Assembly: GCA_030649165.1 (NCBI GenBank)
Contig: JAUSGG010000115.1
Location: forward strand, 1-38,632
Direction of reading: 5' to 3'
DNA from: Armatimonadota bacterium
GTDB lineage: Bacteria; Armatimonadota; UBA5829; JAUSEB01
Length of the DNA: 38,632 nt
Of this stretch, positions 2,016 through 13,601 are shown piece by piece. Positions within the stretch are counted from its first letter, which is position 1. Every line of letters begins with the position of its first letter. The position numbers and the translations under genes are program-made. The notes below the pieces were generated by a model. The model was given only the letters and a program-made list of their open reading frames with translations. It made no database searches and had not been told where the DNA came from.

Positions 2016-3263
2016 ATGAAGACGAAGCCGATCGCGTTTTGGCTGCAGGTCGCCCTGCTGTCCAGTGTAATGCTGAGAGGCACGGTTGCCGTGGCTCAGT
2101 CCCCATGGCCTATGTGGGGAGGCGACCGGTTCCACACGCGCTCTACAACGATAGTCGGCCCCTCCCAGCCTACTTTCAAGTGGAAGGCTTACGTTGGCGG
2201 AGCTGTGAGAGAGTGCTCCATCGGCGCTGATGGGAACATATACGCGCCAAACTCCTCCGGGGCGCTGACGGCGGTTTCGCCCGGCGGAGGGATATTGTGG
2301 CAAAGGGCCGGGGCGGGGGGGTTAAGCGGCTACGCGACTGCGGCAGTTGGTCCCGATGGGAACCTTTACAGCGCCAACGGTAACTACGCTGCAGCGTCCT
2401 ACAGCCCGAACGGCGAGTTGCGCTGGAGCTCGTACAACCAAGAATTGGCGAGGGCGCCCACCATTGCCGCAGACGGGAGCATCTGGACTTCGAGACTCAA
2501 GTTGAGCGCGAATGGTGATGCGATCGGCCCGTCATACTCAGAGTCTCGTACGCCCGTTTCTGAGGCGCGTGCCGGAGGTGTGTATGCGGGTGATATCTAC
2601 ACAACAACAGCAACCCCCGGCAGTCTCGGAGCTGGCGTCCTTAAAACGCAACGATTACAGCTTAACGCGCAAGGCCAGTGGTACTGGGCCACCGCGTGGA
2701 GTTTTGAAGCGTCGATGGGGCCGTCCCACTTCGGGACTCCGGCGGTAGCCGAGAACGGCAACGTGATCGTCGCGTGGAGCAGGGACGCTGTACCCCTAGA
2801 TGGCAAGATACGTGCTTTCAGCCCCGCAGGAGCCTCGCTTTGGACTGTTGGTGTTGGCGCGTACCCCGAATTGGCGATTGGCTCTGACGGAACTATCTAC
2901 GCGCACGGCGGACAGCAACTGTGGGCGATAAACCCTGACGGCTCGATTCGTTGGACCACCGATCTTGGCGTCGGGGCTAATGCTCCGTTGGTCGTCGACG
3001 GGGCTGGAACCGTGTACGTTCGTACGAGCAGCGGCCTCATCGCAGTCGCTTCGAATGGTGCCGTTTCGTGGAACATCTCTGTTGGACAAAACGGCTCACC
3101 GTCTGGGACTCCGTTGTTTGGAGCGGATGGGACTATGTACGTGGGCTCAGTGGACGGCTTCCTTTATGCCTATGCTCCAGTTCCAGAGCCCGCTTCGGCG
3201 CTTGGGCTGGCTGCCGGTCTGTTTGCTCTCGTTCCCAGCTTAAGGCGACGAGGACAACGCTAA
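2016..3263 (+). CDS. PQQ-like beta-propeller protein with PEP-CTERM sorting signal
   Basis: A 415-residue exported protein. Residues 1-28 form a signal peptide ending near AVAQ. The body has repeated beta-propeller blades with the PQQ-enzyme-like motif G-DGxxY (IGADGNIYAP, VGPDGNLYSA, IGSDGTIYAH, GADGTMYVGS) and Trp-rich strands. The tail from about residue 389 is a PEP-CTERM signal: VPEP, a hydrophobic segment (ASALGLAAGLFALVPSL) and a basic end (RRRGQR). Such tails are cut and processed by exosortases, giving a surface or matrix protein; no exosortase is in this window. No catalytic residues of PQQ dehydrogenases were recognised, so a binding or structural role is likelier. Its promoter spacer holds a G10 tract. 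The 5S-derived fragment begins 15 nt after its stop. Confidence 0.85.
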   Translation: MKTKPIAFWLQVALLSSVMLRGTVAVAQSPWPMWGGDRFHTRSTTIVGPSQPTFKWKAYVGGAVRECSIGADGNIYAPNSSGALTAVSPGGGILWQRAGAGGLSGYATAAVGPDGNLYSANGNYAAASYSPNGELRWSSYNQELARAPTIAADGSIWTSRLKLSANGDAIGPSYSESRTPVSEARAGGVYAGDIYTTTATPGSLGAGVLKTQRLQLNAQGQWYWATAWSFEASMGPSHFGTPAVAENGNVIVAWSRDAVPLDGKIRAFSPAGASLWTVGVGAYPELAIGSDGTIYAHGGQQLWAINPDGSIRWTTDLGVGANAPLVVDGAGTVYVRTSSGLIAVASNGAVSWNISVGQNGSPSGTPLFGADGTMYVGSVDGFLYAYAPVPEPASALGLAAGLFALVPSLRRRGQR

Positions 3264-3277
3264 CTCTGTCGCAACGA

Positions 3278-3326
3278 CCGACGATACTTCATGGGCAACT
3301 GTGCGGGAAAATAGGTTGTTGCCAGG
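3278..3326 (+). repeat. Partial copy of the 5S rRNA 3' end
   Basis: These 49 nt match 5S positions 1246-1294 at 47 sites; the first 39 nt are identical and two C-to-T changes follow. Similarity starts abruptly, 15 nt after the PEP-CTERM gene stop. The 5' half of 5S is absent, so this is not a functional rRNA. The copy is followed by the same kind of terminator hairpin as the real 5S gene, so the duplicated unit extends past the gene end. Confidence 0.92.
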
Positions 3327-3333
3327 TCATTTA

Positions 3334-3353
3334 TGCCCGCCGCGAGGCGGGCA
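3334..3353 (+). terminator. Copy of the 5S terminator hairpin
   Basis: 8-bp stem TGCCCGCC/GGCGGGCA with loop GCGA; it differs from the hairpin at 1306-1325 only in the loop. It is followed by an AT-rich segment and a gtac motif also seen after the first copy. Confidence 0.75.
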
Positions 3354-3359
3354 TTCTTA

Positions 3360-3389
3360 TTGTACGCACTGGCCAGAACGTGTTATAAT
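3360..3389 (+). promoter_or_regulatory. Putative promoter of the DUF433/DUF5615 pair
   Basis: TTGTAC (3360-3365) and TATAAT (3384-3389) with an 18-bp spacer, 17 nt before the start codon of the DUF433 gene. It sits right after the duplicated terminator, the same arrangement as at hicBA. Confidence 0.6.
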
Positions 3390-3406: not shown

Positions 3407-3628
3407 ATGAAACTAGATCGGATTACATTCGACCCCAATACACTCGGCGGCAAGGCGGCCATCCGAGGCATACGTATTTCCGTGTCTCTCGTCGTCAATC
3501 TGGCGGCTAACGGCATGACGCGCCAGGAGATACTTGAGGCGTACCCTGACCTGGAAGACGATGATATTACCCAGGCTCTGAAATACGCCGCTTGGACCTC
3601 TGGCGATATGGTCACAGAAGCGGCGTGA
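3407..3628 (+). CDS. DUF433-family antitoxin
   Basis: A 73-residue protein with the DUF433 signature: GGKAAIRGIRISVSLVVNLA (about residues 14-33), then GMTRQEILEAYPDLEDDDITQALKYAA. This is a winged-helix-like domain commonly encoded just before a DUF5615 PIN-like nuclease, and the pair is regarded as a toxin-antitoxin system. The ATG has GGAGG 6 nt upstream and a strong -10 element close by. It is complete and shows no decay. The toxin start follows 8 nt after its stop. Confidence 0.85.
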   Translation: MKLDRITFDPNTLGGKAAIRGIRISVSLVVNLAANGMTRQEILEAYPDLEDDDITQALKYAAWTSGDMVTEAA

Positions 3629-3636
3629 GGGGTAAA

Positions 3637-4014
3637 ATGCGTTTCCTCGCTGACATGGGCATCTCGCCCGTTACGGTTGCTTGGCTATGCAGGGAAGGAC
3701 ATGACGCCACACATCTGAGAGATGAAGGACTTCGGCAACTTCCAGATGACCTGGTTCTTGAGAAGGCCCGCGCTGAGAAGCGCATATTGTTGACCTGTGA
3801 TCTGGATTTTGGGCAGCTTGTAGCCGCCGGCGGACACGACTTGCCAAGTGTCATACTATTTCGTCTCTCTGACATGCGCCCCAGCAACGTGAACGCCAGA
3901 CTCGACATCGCCCTGGCGGAGTTTCGCCAAGATCTGCTGAGTGGGTCGGTCATTGTCATTGGGGAAGCCAGCATAAGGGTGCGTCGGCTACCCATAGGTA
4001 AAGGAATCGAGTAA
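3637..4014 (+). CDS. DUF5615 PIN-like nuclease toxin
   Basis: A 125-residue protein. The start MRFLADMGIS is the family's first acidic motif (Asp6 in FLAD); EKRILLTCDLDFGQL holds the second acidic cluster of the PIN-like fold. The family is the toxin partner of DUF433 proteins and probably cleaves RNA; this has not been shown for this protein. The ATG at 3637 is preferred to an in-frame codon at 3592 because the domain begins there and because it follows the DUF433 stop. The stop is followed by a degenerate copy of the 5S terminator hairpin. Confidence 0.83.
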   Translation: MRFLADMGISPVTVAWLCREGHDATHLRDEGLRQLPDDLVLEKARAEKRILLTCDLDFGQLVAAGGHDLPSVILFRLSDMRPSNVNARLDIALAEFRQDLLSGSVIVIGEASIRVRRLPIGKGIE

Positions 4015-4029
4015 CGACTGGGCACATCA

Positions 4030-4049
4030 TGTCCGCCGAGAGGCAGGCA
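4030..4049 (+). repeat. Decayed third copy of the 5S terminator hairpin
   Basis: TGTCCGCC GAGA GGCAGGCA matches the two upstream hairpins at most sites but carries one C-A mismatch and one G-U pair. Like them it is followed by a T-rich stretch and gtacgc. No 5S sequence before it is convincingly preserved. It marks the far end of the 5S-associated strip. Confidence 0.5.
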
Positions 4050-4150
4050 TTTTCACGTACGCCCTCCCCCACCCCACCAAATCCGGTAATCTTACCATCT
4101 ACGCTCCCCTGCTTCCCTTTCCCGATACTAGAATGTAAGGAGATTCGCCC

Positions 4151-8703: not shown

Positions 8704-8735
8704 GCGGGAGTGTGCAAGAATCGAACTCATCGAAG
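8704..8735 (-). repeat. Degenerate tRNA-Sec 3'-end fragment (copy R4)
   Basis: Matches the T-arm and part of the acceptor strand of the tRNA-Sec at 13505-13601, with several substitutions (the core GAGTTCGATTCT is intact). It overlaps the last three codons of the methyltransferase gene. It is the farthest from the tRNA and the most diverged of the three copies. Confidence 0.8.
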
Positions 8736-9377
8736 TCGAAACAGAACGTGCCACATCCCCTGCTCGCCGCGCTGCTCGATCAACTCCAGAAGCTCGAAGT
8801 CCTTCTGCCACAGGCGCGCTATCTCCTCGTGGGTGAAGTACCGACGGTAAGAGCCGTAAGCCAGATGCCAGCGTCTGGAACTCCCGTGGAAGAGGTGGAA
8901 CGTCGGGCTGAAAACCGACAGAATGTATAGACCTTGGGGCTTCAGCGCTCTCAGCAGATTTGCTCGATATGCGGGCCAATCGGCTTTGCGCTGGTGATGG
9001 AAACAGCCGTAGTCCAGGACCACGTCGAAACTCGCCGGCTGAAAAGGCAGCGCCAGTGCGCTGCCGGCGCACAGGAATATCTTACTCTGCTCCCCAGCCG
9101 GAATCAGGCCCCGCGCCCTCTGAAGCGCCAGAGGTTCGTAATCCACCCCGACCACCTCGAAACCCAGGCTTGCAGCCGCAACAGAGTGGCGACCTTCACC
9201 GCAGCCCAGGTCCAGCAGCCTGCCGGCAGGAACCAGTTCCCGCGCGCGGCCCAAAAGGCGGAGAACGTCAGGAGATGGTTCAGTGACGCCCCAGCCATGC
9301 TCGCCGGTGCGGTAAGCTTCGCGGAAGTAGCGGACGTTCGAGGCAGCCTGAGAACGTGATGGACGTTGTGCGTTCAA
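8727..9377 (-). CDS. Class I SAM-dependent methyltransferase
   Basis: A 216-residue cytoplasmic enzyme with the Rossmann-type methyltransferase fold. Motif I is LLDLGCGEGRHS (residues 54-65), the acidic residue of motif II is in VVGVDY (75-80), and the motif IV region is FDVVLDYGCFHH. The acceptor substrate cannot be read from the sequence. The start is TTG with GGAGG 6 nt upstream (9384-9388). The stop TGA (8727-8729) lies inside the tRNA-Sec-derived fragment R4, at the same tRNA position as the stop of the upstream antitoxin gene. The gene fills the block between fragments R3 and R4 and is probably cargo of the tRNA-associated array. Confidence 0.82.
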   Translation of the reverse strand: MNAQRPSRSQAASNVRYFREAYRTGEHGWGVTEPSPDVLRLLGRARELVPAGRLLDLGCGEGRHSVAAASLGFEVVGVDYEPLALQRARGLIPAGEQSKIFLCAGSALALPFQPASFDVVLDYGCFHHQRKADWPAYRANLLRALKPQGLYILSVFSPTFHLFHGSSRRWHLAYGSYRRYFTHEEIARLWQKDFELLELIEQRGEQGMWHVLFRLR

Positions 9378-9442
9378 GGATTTCCTCCCCCCGCCTGCAG
9401 CTACGGCGTGGACCGCGGCGTATCCTGCTTGGCTGGTGTGAG

Positions 9443-9481
9443 TGGCGGGAGTGTGTGAGAATCGAACTCACCCGACGCGCT
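9443..9481 (-). repeat. tRNA-Sec 3'-end fragment (copy R3)
   Basis: 39 nt identical to 13505-13543 of the tRNA-Sec gene: CCA end, acceptor 3' strand, T-arm and start of the variable arm. The 5' half of the tRNA is missing. It encodes the last four residues and stop of the HigA-like antitoxin gene. Confidence 0.95.
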
Positions 9482-9833
9482 GTTGTCGCCCACCAGCGGC
9501 GGCCTGCGCGGGGCCGCGCGAAACCCTCGTAGGTTTCATCGTACAACCCAGATTGAGCCGTACCCCGAGTTCCATGCAGATGCGCCAGAGCATTTCCAAA
9601 GCGCTGCCCTTGTAGTCAGCGTTTTCTATCGCCGATATCATTGGCTGCGTCACGCCAATTCGGGTGGCGAGTTCCTCCTGCGTGAGGTGTGCGCGGGTTC
9701 TGAGGTCGTACGCCAACTGGGCGACACGAAGGTTCAACTCTTCCTCGGCGACCATCTTGTCCCACTCGGCATCTCCGCCGTATCTGCTGTCCAGTATCTC
9801 TACCGCGTCCTCAATCCTCTTTTGTTTCCTCAT
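9468..9833 (-). CDS. XRE-family antitoxin (HigA-like)
   Basis: A 121-residue protein with a helix-turn-helix domain of the Cro/C1 type: LTQEELATRIGVTQPMISAI (about residues 50-69), after an acidic N-terminal part (EILDSRYGGDAEWDKMVAEE). It should bind and neutralise the upstream toxin and repress the operon. The ATG lies 23 nt inside the toxin gene. The tail from about residue 100 (THR-rich, then Ala/Gly/Gln) looks like added sequence; its last four residues and the TGA stop come from tRNA-Sec fragment R3. Confidence 0.83.
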   Translation of the reverse strand: MRKQKRIEDAVEILDSRYGGDAEWDKMVAEEELNLRVAQLAYDLRTRAHLTQEELATRIGVTQPMISAIENADYKGSALEMLWRICMELGVRLNLGCTMKPTRVSRGPAQAAAGGRQQRVG

Positions 9834-10200
9834 AGCTATGCCTTTCCGGATCTGATTCGTAGGTGACCTTTCTCCTCATTGCCAGGGTGATCTCCTTGTC
9901 CGGGACTTCCTTCTCCTTCATCAGACCGTGCGACACGATGGCAATGCTCTCCCCATGGAAAAAGTACAACATCCTATAGTTGACAGTGCCGAAGTGGACC
10001 CTGAGCTCGTAGATACCGTCGCGAAGATAATCAGCGGTCGGTCTTCGTAAGTCCCTGCCGTCCTGCTGAAGCGCTTTTATGGCGGCTCTGCACTTAGCGG
10101 CTATCCTCCTGTCTCGCCTTCCGACCTCTCTGTCTAACCATTCAAGCACTGGGACCGAGCCGTCTGCATCTCTGTAAAATACTACAGTTATCTTCGCCAC
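9811..10200 (-). CDS. RelE/HigB-type toxin (phage-derived Gp49-like)
   Basis: A 129-residue protein. The family pattern is clear: an N-terminal VVFYRDADGSVPVLEWLD, then YELRVHFG (64-71), NYRMLYFF (74-81) and HGLMKE (91-96), ending in EITLAMRR. These belong to the HigB/Gp49 (DUF891-like) branch of RelE-fold ribosome-dependent mRNA nucleases. The start is GTG. The toxin-first order with an overlapping antitoxin gene is typical of higBA. A TATACT -10-like element lies about 25 nt upstream of the start on the minus strand. The pair fills the block between tRNA-Sec fragments R2 and R3. Confidence 0.85.
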   Translation of the reverse strand: MAKITVVFYRDADGSVPVLEWLDREVGRRDRRIAAKCRAAIKALQQDGRDLRRPTADYLRDGIYELRVHFGTVNYRMLYFFHGESIAIVSHGLMKEKEVPDKEITLAMRRKVTYESDPERHSYEETKED

Positions 10201-10274
10201 ATATCTCTCCGAGAGTAGTATACCATATGTTGGATAATCTTACTAGCAGTAGCCCGTGATTTTACACAAGAGCA

Positions 10275-10334
10275 TTCTGGCGGGAGTGTGTGAGAATCGA
10301 ACTCACCCGACGCGCTATTGCACGTCATACATGG
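10275..10334 (-). repeat. tRNA-Sec 3'-end fragment (copy R2)
   Basis: Bases 10275-10319 are identical to 13502-13546 (45 nt), and similarity continues imperfectly to about 10334, covering the acceptor 3' strand, T-arm and most of the long variable arm. It also matches three bases downstream of CCA. It starts 6 nt after the stop of the DUF6259 gene. It is the longest and best-preserved copy. Confidence 0.95.
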
Positions 10335-10340
10335 ATTCGC

Positions 10341-13300
10341 TCACCGAAACACTACGTCTGCCCAGTGCGCCCAGTCGTACAAGTTGTCTCCGAGCGAGTC
10401 CGTGACAAGCTGGACCAGTATTGTCTGTCCGCGCCAGGTCGCGATGTCGATTGTTCCGTCAGTCCAGCCGGCTTCCCTGGTCGTATACGTCCACAGGGTC
10501 TCTCCATTGATCTTGACGGCGAAGCCGATTCCGCTTGTTATGGAGCCATCGGCAATCCCGGCGCTGAAGGAAAGCTTCAGGGAAGGCTCATCCGGCAAAT
10601 CGACCAACCAGGATATCACCGTCTGGCCGTCGCCGGGAGGATGAGCGTTGATTGCGCGTTCTTTGGAGACCTCTTTGCACGTGATCTTGCCGATTGTCCC
10701 GCTTCCGTACACCGTCCCCTTTCTCACTATGCCGTCGCCCGCCAGCGCACAGTCATGGGGGAGGCCCAGGAGATCGCGGCTCGCGGTTAAGGGACGCCCC
10801 CTGGCGAAAAATGCAACGACGCTGCAGGGCAGCGGAAGGTCGTGAAATGAGACAACTCCATCCGCTACAGCCGGCGGCGCGGCGGGCGCGGCGAATCTGA
10901 CGGATTTGCCGGACGGTATGCGAAGCTTCGCGTCTGCTCTAGGAGCGCCATCCTCGGCCACAATGCGGAGGCCGCTCCAGTTCGCGTGATCCCAGGTTGG
11001 ATCTCCCGCCGGACCGGGACCGGTCAGAAACCGAAGCCTCACGGTCTTCCCCCGCCACTTGGCCAGACTGACGCCACGGGAATGCCAGGAACTCTCCGCG
11101 ATATGCTCGCGCCAGATATCTTCTCGATTGACTGCCACCGCGAAGGTGACGCCGTCGGACTCCTTCGCCGCGTCAGACAATCCACAGCAAAAGCGCAGCT
11201 CCGGGTTTGCCGACTTGGGGACGCGGATCAGGTATTCGAAGAACGTTTCCCCCGTCCTGGACTGCCAGGGGGGATGCTGGAAGACGCCCCGGCGGGCTTG
11301 GCCCCCGCAGATGGATTCCTGCGGCAGCACGGTCGCTCCCCATTCAAGAGTCGAATCCTTGCCGCCAAAAACGGTCCCCGTCCTGGCCCGAGGAAACAAT
11401 TTCAACAGATCCATCGAACCCTCGTCTCGCGGAGTCAGTTGAAAAACGGCGAAATCGTCCCTGACCTGAGCGAACGAGAGCAGGGAGTTGTCACTCAGAT
11501 ATGACAGATGGCAACCTTCGTCAGGACGGGAATCCTCGTCCAGCCAATAGTCGCGTTCCGGGTCCAGCCCGTAGACCGTTTCCTCGTCGTAAGCCCCCCA
11601 CCCCGCCGGACGAAGAGTCGTCGCGAGTTTGGTCACGCCGGAGACTCGCGAGTACACGATTTCATCTCCCCACCGGCAACGCGCGCCGGATGGAGTGCGC
11701 TCCACTACAACCTTGGCTCCATCTGATCCTTTGAGGCGGAAAAGAGCATTTCCCCAATCCCCGGTCCAGTCCGGTTTGAGGTCGTGATCCTGCCACAGCC
11801 TGGCCCATTTGAGGGATCGACGAACGCCGGGACTTGACTCGTTCAAGTCATCAAGGCCCCAGACCGCGAGTGTCGGCGTCACACCCTGGTTTTCGTAGCG
11901 TCGGAAGTAATTGAGGTACGCCGGGTCCTCCGGACCAGGTTGCCCCAGATACCCGTAGAACGCGACTCGCTCGCCAAACAGGAAGTCCGAGACAGGATGT
12001 GGCTGCAGCGCTCCAATGATCCAGCGTTGAGCAAACCGCTCGTAAGGGGCGAGGAGTTCGTGCAGACTCTCGCCTCCAAAGACGAGGTTGGGATACGCCC
12101 GCGCCAGTTGCCGGTGCAGCTCGACCTCCCCCTCAAGGTAATTCCTGCCCTGGACCAGACCGCCGCCGTCGTTCCACGCGGGGCACGAAACGTCGAGATG
12201 TATGGCGTCGGGGTTCAACTCTCGAACAGCCGGACGCAGGCTCTCGACGAACAGGCTGCGAAATTCCCTGGCGGCCGGGTTGATGAAAGCGAAACGATCC
12301 GGCACGGTTTCCGGTTTACCCCAGTACCAACCCACTAGATCGAGGGTGCGCGCGTCCTTCACTTGATACTGCTTTACCGACGCATACGCCGGGTTGCCCG
12401 GACTGACGCCCGGAAGGTCCGTGTGAAGCATAACCCGAAACCCCAGCGAGCGAGCGAATTCCGTGAACTGTCTTGCGCCATCACGCGGCGTGTAGTCGGG
12501 GTAGTTCACGTCGTAGCCGTCCTTTCTCCAGGACGGGAGATAAATGAGTGTCTTGCGCGGGTCGAGTTTCCTGGCGAGCTGATCGAGAATCACAGTGTCG
12601 AGCCGATGCAGGGTTATGACCGTCCTTATGTCGCTTGCCCAGGACTTGGCGGCGTCGGTTTCCACCGGCCAATAGCCGGAACGAAGCCGCTCGCGGTAAT
12701 AAGCCGCCGGCTCCCGCCAATCGCCCTTGAAGGCGCGGATGCGCCATTCCAATTCCGGCACAGTGGTCGCGGGCGGCCACGGAGCGACGGCTTCGGTCTC
12801 AAATCGGGCGTCCAGAGAACGACCGTCCCTGTCCAGGCGCAGCTTCTTGAAGCGCATGCGCTCGTCGGTCGAATACACGGCAAACCCGCCGCCCTTGCCT
12901 TCCCAGATCGCCAACTGCGCCTCCCAGTCCTGGGGATAGTCGATAGTGACCGCGGCGAAGCCCGAGTCTTTGTCGGCCCGTGAGCCGCCATATGCAGGAA
13001 CGACCAGCCGGCCCTTCGACAGGTCCAGACCGCGAATGCCCCACATCGCGCCGGTGACGCCCGGGGAAGTGGTCGAACCGGACAATCGAACAACGATCTC
13101 CTGAGTCTCCTCGCACGCGGAGACCGTCATCTCGACGGACCTGGTTTCGTCCTTGAAACAAGCCGACGCCGAACTTGGGCTTATTCGCCGCCATCCAGTG
13201 CAGCGCAGTCCGGTTTCCGGCTGCGACAACATCCGCAGATCGAGAAGCGTTGCGGCTCCCTGGAACAAGCCGCAGTACCGTGCGCCCAGGCTGAGGTCGG

Positions 13301-13451
13301 TCAGACGAACGAGGTCTCCGCCGCGGAAGACAGCGCTGACGCGCTGCGTCGCCACCACAAGCTTATCGCCGTTTACTTCGATAGCGGCAATCAGAGGGCG
13401 CGCGCAGAGGAATGATATACAGATCGCAAAAACAAGACCGTGAGTTTTCAT
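10341..13451 (-). CDS. Secreted DUF6259-type glycosidase-like protein
   Basis: A 1036-residue exported protein with signal peptide MKTHGLVFAICISFLCARPLIA. The N-terminal part is a beta-sandwich. The central region resembles a TIM-barrel hydrolase of the DUF6259 type: TLIYLPSWRKDGYDVNYPDY, GFRVMLHTDLPGVSPGNPAY, AIHLDVSCPAWNDGGG and LVFGGESLHELL hold conserved Asp/Glu residues that could be catalytic. Two C-terminal segments (about 730-840 and 930-1036) share the pattern GITFAVxxNxExxW...WRGxTxxxxxxTxxG...WDxAxW and look like a repeated NPCBM-like carbohydrate-binding domain. Substrate unknown. It begins 53 nt after the 3' end of tRNA-Sec on the same strand, with no terminator between, so it may be read from the tRNA promoter. 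Confidence 0.72.
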   Translation of the reverse strand: MKTHGLVFAICISFLCARPLIAAIEVNGDKLVVATQRVSAVFRGGDLVRLTDLSLGARYCGLFQGAATLLDLRMLSQPETGLRCTGWRRISPSSASACFKDETRSVEMTVSACEETQEIVVRLSGSTTSPGVTGAMWGIRGLDLSKGRLVVPAYGGSRADKDSGFAAVTIDYPQDWEAQLAIWEGKGGGFAVYSTDERMRFKKLRLDRDGRSLDARFETEAVAPWPPATTVPELEWRIRAFKGDWREPAAYYRERLRSGYWPVETDAAKSWASDIRTVITLHRLDTVILDQLARKLDPRKTLIYLPSWRKDGYDVNYPDYTPRDGARQFTEFARSLGFRVMLHTDLPGVSPGNPAYASVKQYQVKDARTLDLVGWYWGKPETVPDRFAFINPAAREFRSLFVESLRPAVRELNPDAIHLDVSCPAWNDGGGLVQGRNYLEGEVELHRQLARAYPNLVFGGESLHELLAPYERFAQRWIIGALQPHPVSDFLFGERVAFYGYLGQPGPEDPAYLNYFRRYENQGVTPTLAVWGLDDLNESSPGVRRSLKWARLWQDHDLKPDWTGDWGNALFRLKGSDGAKVVVERTPSGARCRWGDEIVYSRVSGVTKLATTLRPAGWGAYDEETVYGLDPERDYWLDEDSRPDEGCHLSYLSDNSLLSFAQVRDDFAVFQLTPRDEGSMDLLKLFPRARTGTVFGGKDSTLEWGATVLPQESICGGQARRGVFQHPPWQSRTGETFFEYLIRVPKSANPELRFCCGLSDAAKESDGVTFAVAVNREDIWREHIAESSWHSRGVSLAKWRGKTVRLRFLTGPGPAGDPTWDHANWSGLRIVAEDGAPRADAKLRIPSGKSVRFAAPAAPPAVADGVVSFHDLPLPCSVVAFFARGRPLTASRDLLGLPHDCALAGDGIVRKGTVYGSGTIGKITCKEVSKERAINAHPPGDGQTVISWLVDLPDEPSLKLSFSAGIADGSITSGIGFAVKINGETLWTYTTREAGWTDGTIDIATWRGQTILVQLVTDSLGDNLYDWAHWADVVFR

Positions 13452-13504
13452 CTCAACAGGTTCCTATTCCGGAGTTCAGCAGCTTGAGAGTTGTCCTGGT
13501 GTTC

Positions 13505-13601
13505 TGGCGGGAGTGTGTGAGAATCGAACTCACCCGACGCGCTATTAACACGTCACACAGGTTTTGAAGACCAGGAGAGCCACCAGGCCCCATCCACTCC
13601 C
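13505..13601 (-). tRNA. selC: Selenocysteine tRNA (anticodon UCA)
   Basis: A 97-nt RNA with encoded CCA. Diagnostic tRNA-Sec features: an extended acceptor (7 clear pairs GGGAGTG/CACTCCC plus an eighth G-A opposition), a 6-bp D-stem with a 4-nt loop (GGGGCC TGGT GGCTCT), anticodon loop CTTCAAA with UCA at 13565-13567, a long variable arm (GACGTG, 7-nt loop, CGCGTC), and a 5-bp T-stem GTGAG/CTCAC with TTCGATT loop. One U-U mismatch lies in the anticodon stem. It implies that the genome decodes UGA as selenocysteine; selA, selB and selD are not in the window. Its 3' end is the source of fragments R2, R3 and R4. Confidence 0.93.

Follow-up and report, generated by a model that had tools for sequence, protein, structure and literature searches.

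The window analysed here, the whole 38.6-kb contig C114 (JAUSGG010000115.1) of a 5.48-Mb Armatimonadota draft genome in 266 contigs, carries an intact selenocysteine tRNA gene (selC) followed by three blocks of cargo genes, each closed by a partial copy of the selC 3' end. This selC array is genuine, and the best reading of it is that its blocks were joined on one by one. As to its origin, homology-anchored additive insertion of foreign blocks behind selC is the best explanation that we can offer, held with evenly balanced confidence. The observations beneath it are the geometry of the array, blocks in which no recombinase was seen, and like geometry at four tRNA genes, a 5S rRNA gene and a protein-gene junction.

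An array of three blocks behind selC

The selC gene (13505-13601, minus strand, anticodon tca) was called by ARAGORN and matches Rfam family RF01852. The cargo genes behind it were identified from open reading frames (ORFs) and Pfam matches, and the copies of its end by alignment. Block 1 holds a gene for a 1036-aa protein with DUF6259 and NPCBM domains (10341-13451), which starts 53 nt past selC and stops 9 nt short of the homology of the first copy, R2 (10275-10331). The downstream 45 nt of R2 (10275-10319) are identical to selC (45/45), and the homology further upstream is imperfect, with substitutions and one indel. Block 2 consists of a toxin-antitoxin (TA) pair, a HigB-like (Gp49/DUF891) toxin (9811-10200) and a HigA-like helix-turn-helix antitoxin (9468-9833), the stop codon of which lies within the second copy, R3 (9443-9481; 39/39 nt). 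Block 3 is a class I methyltransferase gene (8727-9377; PADLOC mad2, 1e-23) with its stop codon within the degenerate third copy, R4 (8704-8729; 24/26 nt). All cargo lies on the minus strand like selC, and the spacings among selC and its same-strand copies are 741, 835 and 3227 nt. The blocks are flanked by direct repeats of the target 3' end, and the target itself is intact. An initial annotation, made from the sequence alone, had described an intact selC with three same-strand 3'-end copies and commonly oriented cargo of these kinds, and both descriptions were confirmed.

Across the whole draft genome, a 38-nt selC-end pattern allowing up to 3 mismatches matched only selC, R2 and R3, and a 25-nt pattern only selC, R2, R3 and R4; the reversed control patterns of both searches gave 0 matches. 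Identity of the copies falls with distance from selC, from R2 and R3 to R4. No second selC copy was found in 18 relatives (flanks of about 1-10 kb, with longer stretches for 12 of the 18), and the selC surroundings were not syntenic across the loci compared. Because the copies decay with distance, relatives have no second copy near selC and the array shows no visible recombinase, the sequential addition of blocks at selC, as first proposed in the initial annotation, is supported.

Two other origins were weighed against these data. Joining of unrelated contigs through the 39-45 nt identical repeats is very improbable. The genome is a 266-contig draft, and contig ends fall exactly at one tRNA-Glu and within about 0.5 kb of several other tRNAs, but R4 and the copies at three further sites described below (tRNA-Ser, tRNA-Glu and 5S rRNA) are imperfect and therefore not simple assembly copies, and like geometry occurs in an unrelated record (L197). 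Unequal crossing-over or local duplication, in which errors of replication or repair would have given tandem copies of RNA gene ends and terminators, with foreign genes reaching the spacers later by separate routes, is improbable too. This genome has many local rows of paralogues and dispersed repeats, which would suit such a process; however, each selC copy closes exactly one block, the cargo stop codons lie in or beside the copies, and plain duplication would not yield the upstream substitutions and indel of R2 beside 45 identical nucleotides.

Like arrays at other tRNA genes

Beyond selC, a scan of the tRNA neighbourhoods of this genome (49 ARAGORN calls in 34 stretches, with one degenerate Glu copy counted twice) uncovered three tRNAs with a downstream same-strand 3'-end copy. 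Behind tRNA-Ser(CGA) lies a 531-nt block containing hicB, hicA and little besides, and behind tRNA-Leu(GAG) a 3.5-kb block closed by a 79/79-nt copy. The 5.7-kb stretch behind tRNA-Glu(CTC) (L098, contig C229, 1029-6733) ends with an almost full-length tRNA copy whose 5' half is degenerate, and is split into two blocks by a copy consisting mostly of the hairpin behind the tRNA. Its cargo includes a DUF1848 protein, which PADLOC matches to its model RTasDUF1848, and a 396-aa protein that weakly resembles reverse transcriptase models of DRT systems.

The tRNA copies begin at tRNA positions 1, 9, 43, 56, 68 and 70. All six aligned copies contain the T-arm/3' part, and the R2, R3 and Leu copies end 0-3 nt beyond CCA; the middle Glu copy keeps only the last few tRNA bases well. 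Some copies are made mostly of sequence behind the RNA gene, such as the middle Glu copy, the second 5S copy (see below) and one of the stretch just behind tRNA-Ala in locus L270. Together with two blocks each at the 5S rRNA and at carB-pyrK, the genome holds 11 blocks at 6 sites (selC 3, Ser 1, Leu 1, Glu 2, 5S 2, carB-pyrK 2), ranging from 0.5 to 5.7 kb. Addiction-type cargo comprises the TA pairs in selC block 2 and at the Ser and 5S sites, and a restriction-modification (RM) system plus a TA pair at carB-pyrK; other cargo occupies the DUF6259 block, the Leu block and the first Glu block.

In L085, a tRNA-Gln call that lacks CCA had matches in several stretches and was discarded as a dispersed repeat, and other short tRNA matches (15-23 nt, E 0.02-0.03) were treated as chance. 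Several paralogues, about 72-82% alike, stand in a row downstream of the tRNA-Ser block (L079 1044-14947). Another complete tRNA-Glu(CTC), followed by a nearly identical hairpin, lies exactly at the end of contig C195 (L096, 4344-4419).

A second array behind the 5S rRNA of the same contig

The second array of contig C114 is on the plus strand and is anchored at the 5S rRNA gene (1179-1295; Rfam), 3' of the 23S rRNA gene. Its block 1 encodes a HicB-like antitoxin (1389-1604; ORF 1302-1604 with an in-frame ATG at 1389; Pfam), a HicA toxin (1609-1830; Pfam) and a 415-aa protein (2016-3263) that we judge by eye to be of PEP-CTERM type and that appears beta-propeller-like from sub-cut-off Pfam matches. 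This last ORF stops 14 nt ahead of an 88-nt copy of the 5S rRNA 3' end and the hairpin behind it (3278-3365; 79/92 aligned columns identical). Block 2 contains DUF433 (3407-3628) and DUF5615 (3592-4014, likely start ATG 3637) genes, both from Pfam matches, which we take to be a putative antitoxin and toxin, respectively. It is closed by a degenerate copy of the hairpin alone (4029-4060; 26/32 nt). The score of this copy, 20, exceeds the 15.1 that was the highest among 1500 random stretches of the contig, although a G+C-rich hairpin of this kind could also arise independently.

A protein-gene junction with the same arrangement

On contig C21 (L233 2532-10416), the gene order is carB, a type II RM pair, a 5' piece of pyrK, a 3' piece of carB, hicBA, DUF5131 and intact pyrK, the names carB and pyrK being assigned by eye from the translations. 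The pyrK piece (74 nt, 84% identical) and the carB piece lie within 7 nt of each other, a joint that is expected of a circularised carB-RM-pyrK fragment. The carB piece measures 174 nt, the corresponding end of the intact gene 183 nt, and over about 115 nt the two copies do not differ. Of the intact carB end, 9 nt are missing from both the distal copy and the relative G001, which would follow from a native distal copy and an intact-gene end brought in by the insert; the roughly 115 nt of identity suit this reading less well. Among relatives, carB adjoins pyrK in 7 of 19 pyrK loci, the other 12 having no carB in the 1.5-kb flank. The gap between the two genes is about -67 to 138 nt in six of those seven loci; in G001 it is about 367 nt and contains a hicB-like remnant. 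Because of this remnant, hicBA at carB-pyrK may predate the split between G000 and G001, with the RM block added later. The site is also readable as a junction duplicated in tandem, one copy holding the RM pair and the second hicBA, a point in favour of the local duplication considered above.

Recombinases of the genome

No recombinase was seen in any of the 11 blocks at the 6 sites, as judged by genome-wide searches with PF00589 and PF00239 and by Pfam annotation of the array proteins. PF00589 gave two matches, on contigs C182 and C102, outside all blocks. Both pass XerC/XerD models, reach 134.9 and 142.8 bits with TIGR02249, far under its cut-off of 265, and barely pass NF040815 ('site-specific tyrosine recombinase/integron integrase'). 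The single PF00239 match is a 563-aa serine recombinase on contig C131 (34.6 kb). Its best NCBIfam matches, to Ccr recombinases, fall far short of the cut-offs of those models, and the first 20 kb of C131 (L303 1-20000) gave no tRNA fragment better than chance. These searches returned no integrase-bearing element with a matching attachment (att) site in the genome. The statement in the initial annotation that no integrase is visible in the array was thus upheld, and an integrase elsewhere with a matching site, for which it had suggested looking, was not found in the genome with either model. Its suggestion that the blocks are mobilised in trans describes a possibility rather than an established fact, the only candidates being XerC/XerD and the serine recombinase. 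Judged from its genes only, C131 is suspected to be a contaminant contig; its first 20 kb also carry an IstAB-like pair, and one of its genes is presumably DUF2924-like.

An integrase-driven tandem island array remains a serious rival, which we rate below even. It would require a recombinase acting on the selC 3' end, supplied in trans or since lost, with the blocks as att-flanked remnants resembling cis-mobilizable elements (CIMEs) and XerC/XerD uninvolved. Integration of this kind is the usual behaviour of elements at tRNA 3' ends, the R2, R3 and Leu copies end close to CCA as it would predict, and a helper element could come from outside the genome. Precedents exist in the tandem ssrA islands of Dehalococcoides, 15 of which have no integration module and were proposed to be perhaps cis-mobilizable, next to 16 sister blocks with a module and a serine integrase (PMC3146451). 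Additive islands at tRNA genes with recurring partial tRNA repeats, in Actinomarinales and in Methylophilaceae, where their sizes run from 330 bp to 42 kb, are further precedents (PMC7771536, PMC10872708). On the other side stand the blocks themselves, none with a visible integrase, and a genome whose only candidates are XerC/XerD and an unlinked serine recombinase. Moreover, the copies start at widely varying points within the tRNA, and the 531-nt block has a TA pair as its only cargo. The same arrangement is found at the 5S rRNA, at terminators and at the carB-pyrK junction, for which an integrase specific to selC would not account.

Proposed route of insertion

Homology-anchored insertion is slightly favoured over an integrase because the targets include a protein gene and terminators and because the start points of the copies vary. 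The genome also encodes a ComEC-type domain, which was counted in favour of this route. According to this proposal, a fragment consisting of a donor selC end and adjoining cargo (a TA pair, a methyltransferase or DUF6259 gene) would close into a circle and enter through a single crossover within selC. Both the donor and the circular intermediate are postulated. The outcome would be an intact tRNA gene, then the cargo, then a partial tRNA 3' end, so that the newest block would lie nearest selC, and addictive cargo may aid the retention of a block. More generally, and only tentatively, conserved gene ends (tRNA, 5S, terminators, carB-like) might serve as landing pads for integrase-free transfer of circularised short fragments that build arrays blockwise, with TA and RM systems over-represented since their loss is punished.

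Outside this genome, a HigBA relative in a Deltaproteobacteria record (L197) is flanked by an intact tRNA-Val(CAC) on one side and a copy of its end (29/31 nt) on the other, and other HigBA relatives lie between duplicated ends of fabF-like, LysR-like, DUF2851-like and phyH-like genes (provisional names, assigned partly by eye). In other Armatimonadota genomes, hicAB pairs are flanked by duplicated segments that look by eye to be of Rhs type (L132, L134, L234). Among viral contigs, the selC 38-mer had 0 exact matches, and HigB relatives accounted for 8 of 67 candidate stretches, with no tRNA in the 8 loci; a search of plasmids gave 8 records.

Several observations weigh against homology-anchored insertion. 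Homologies of 24-45 nt are very short for RecA. The three blocks at a single selC and the copies ending 0-3 nt past CCA also fit an integrase acting at tRNA ends. At carB-pyrK, hicBA is possibly old, and about 115 nt of identity in carB against 84% in the pyrK piece poorly fits a circle, barring later gene conversion. The R2 allele was present in none of 290 other genomes (291 were searched including this one), and no donor selC allele was found. Nor was a downstream tRNA 3' copy found at E ≤ 0.005 in the relatives G001, G011 and G022, in a partial survey of 50 loci and 124 ARAGORN calls, overlapping calls being counted more than once; it covered 30 of 130 matches, each taken with flanks of 1.5 kb, together with 19 longer stretches from G001 and L029. 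One 18-nt match of the 5' part of tRNA-Trp was seen there. Within this genome, four other TA loci have no flanking repeat at the threshold used, except on C133, where a 19-nt repeat recurs 2.75 kb apart; the pair on C24 is too close to the contig start to be judged. Finally, a nearby same-strand repeat was found for 23 of 264 random 100-nt queries, compared to 5 of 47 tRNA ends, and one of these five matches a neighbouring tRNA. Since random queries have repeats too, the repeat count alone proves nothing, and the case rests on what is repeated.

Flanking repeats are commoner at toxin loci than at controls, but this excess shrinks once tandem TA copies and Rhs-type repeats are removed. For HicA, 69 loci were taken from a longer match list, leaving out the tRNA-Ser locus that prompted the test, and 12 of the 67 testable loci had a flanking repeat, against 10/250 and 15/377 control placements; L233 (C21) was scored as a miss with a repeat spacing of 1502 against the limit of 1500. 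Five positives were judged unsound: L235 (tandem TA), L132, L134 and L234 (Rhs-type repeats) and L271 (hicB remnant). Removal of the first four left 8/63 (Fisher p = 0.014). For HigB, with 80 loci given and the toxin end approximate in 48 of them, the count was 14/75 against 8/126 controls, and 9/70 (p = 0.10) after removal of L177, L193, L213, L217 and L228. The low-complexity filter was off in these tests, and the L118 repeats look low-complexity. The p-values are weak because the controls were not curated as the TA loci were.

Significance and comparison with known systems

To our knowledge, it is an open question how solitary chromosomal TA pairs move with no visible mobile element. The compact TA units lying between copied gene ends, found at several RNA genes of this genome and behind tRNA-Val in a record from another phylum, make the question testable, since the duplicated end is a scar from which target, donor allele and sequence of events can be read. 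If the integrase-free route is true, island searches based on integrases miss a class of transfers; if the landing-pad reading is true, single TA pairs are mobile units in themselves. No report of TA pairs inserted with duplicated tRNA or gene ends was found in the literature searched, which mostly did not cover subscription journals, so that absence from print is not claimed.

CIME/accretion arrays and the ssrA islands (PMC3146451, PMC5704250) resemble the Armatimonadota arrays in their tandem blocks behind a target and direct repeats of its end. They differ in that sister blocks at the same ssrA site bear a serine integrase, whereas none was found in the Armatimonadota arrays, where blocks are 0.5-5.7 kb and some targets are not classic att sites. 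Additive tRNA islands share the cassettes at tRNA genes, the tell-tale partial tRNA repeats and sizes down to 330 bp (PMC7771536, PMC10872708), but single-TA blocks and 5S or terminator anchors are unmentioned in the available portions of their descriptions. Tycheposons are likewise tRNA-anchored cargo elements, but have a tyrosine recombinase and measure 4-200 kb (PMC10872708), whereas the Armatimonadota blocks hold no PF00589 match. Integron cassettes differ as well: neither tyrosine recombinase of the genome reached the integron integrase cut-off of TIGR02249, and the array separators are RNA gene ends.

RM systems are reported to insert with long target duplications, on the order of 100 bp (Nobusato 2000, Furuta 2010, as cited in PMC3874152 and PMC3031569). 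The likeness lies in addiction modules, direct target duplication and no linked mobile element, and the carB-pyrK site itself contains an RM pair. Here too the insert is flanked by a direct duplication of the target with the gene intact, but the selC copies are only 26-57 nt, compared to the roughly 100 bp cited; moreover, that mode was described for RM systems, whereas here TA pairs and other genes are inserted and RNA gene ends are targets. Beside homology-facilitated illegitimate recombination, recircularised linear DNA offers another parallel, a gene-end duplication next to a foreign insert with no integrase. In E. coli, 56 of 60 Lac- clones obtained from linear DNA gave a polymerase chain reaction product of the duplicated homologous gene end, and the duplicated ends, 109-950 bp in 14 sequenced cases, were explained by single crossover of trimmed, recircularised molecules (PMC3240628). 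That was a laboratory system with 1 kb of homology, in contrast to 24-79 nt in the Armatimonadota arrays.

The remark in the initial annotation that the arrangement seems not to match a standard island is therefore too strong, as tandem blocks with no integrase behind an RNA gene have already been published. Integrase-less tandem arrays and insertions with target duplication are both known, and the Armatimonadota arrays belong with them. What is new is the combination within one genome of very compact units, several of which consist of a single TA pair, with a choice of targets that spans several RNA genes, including 5S rRNA, and terminators.

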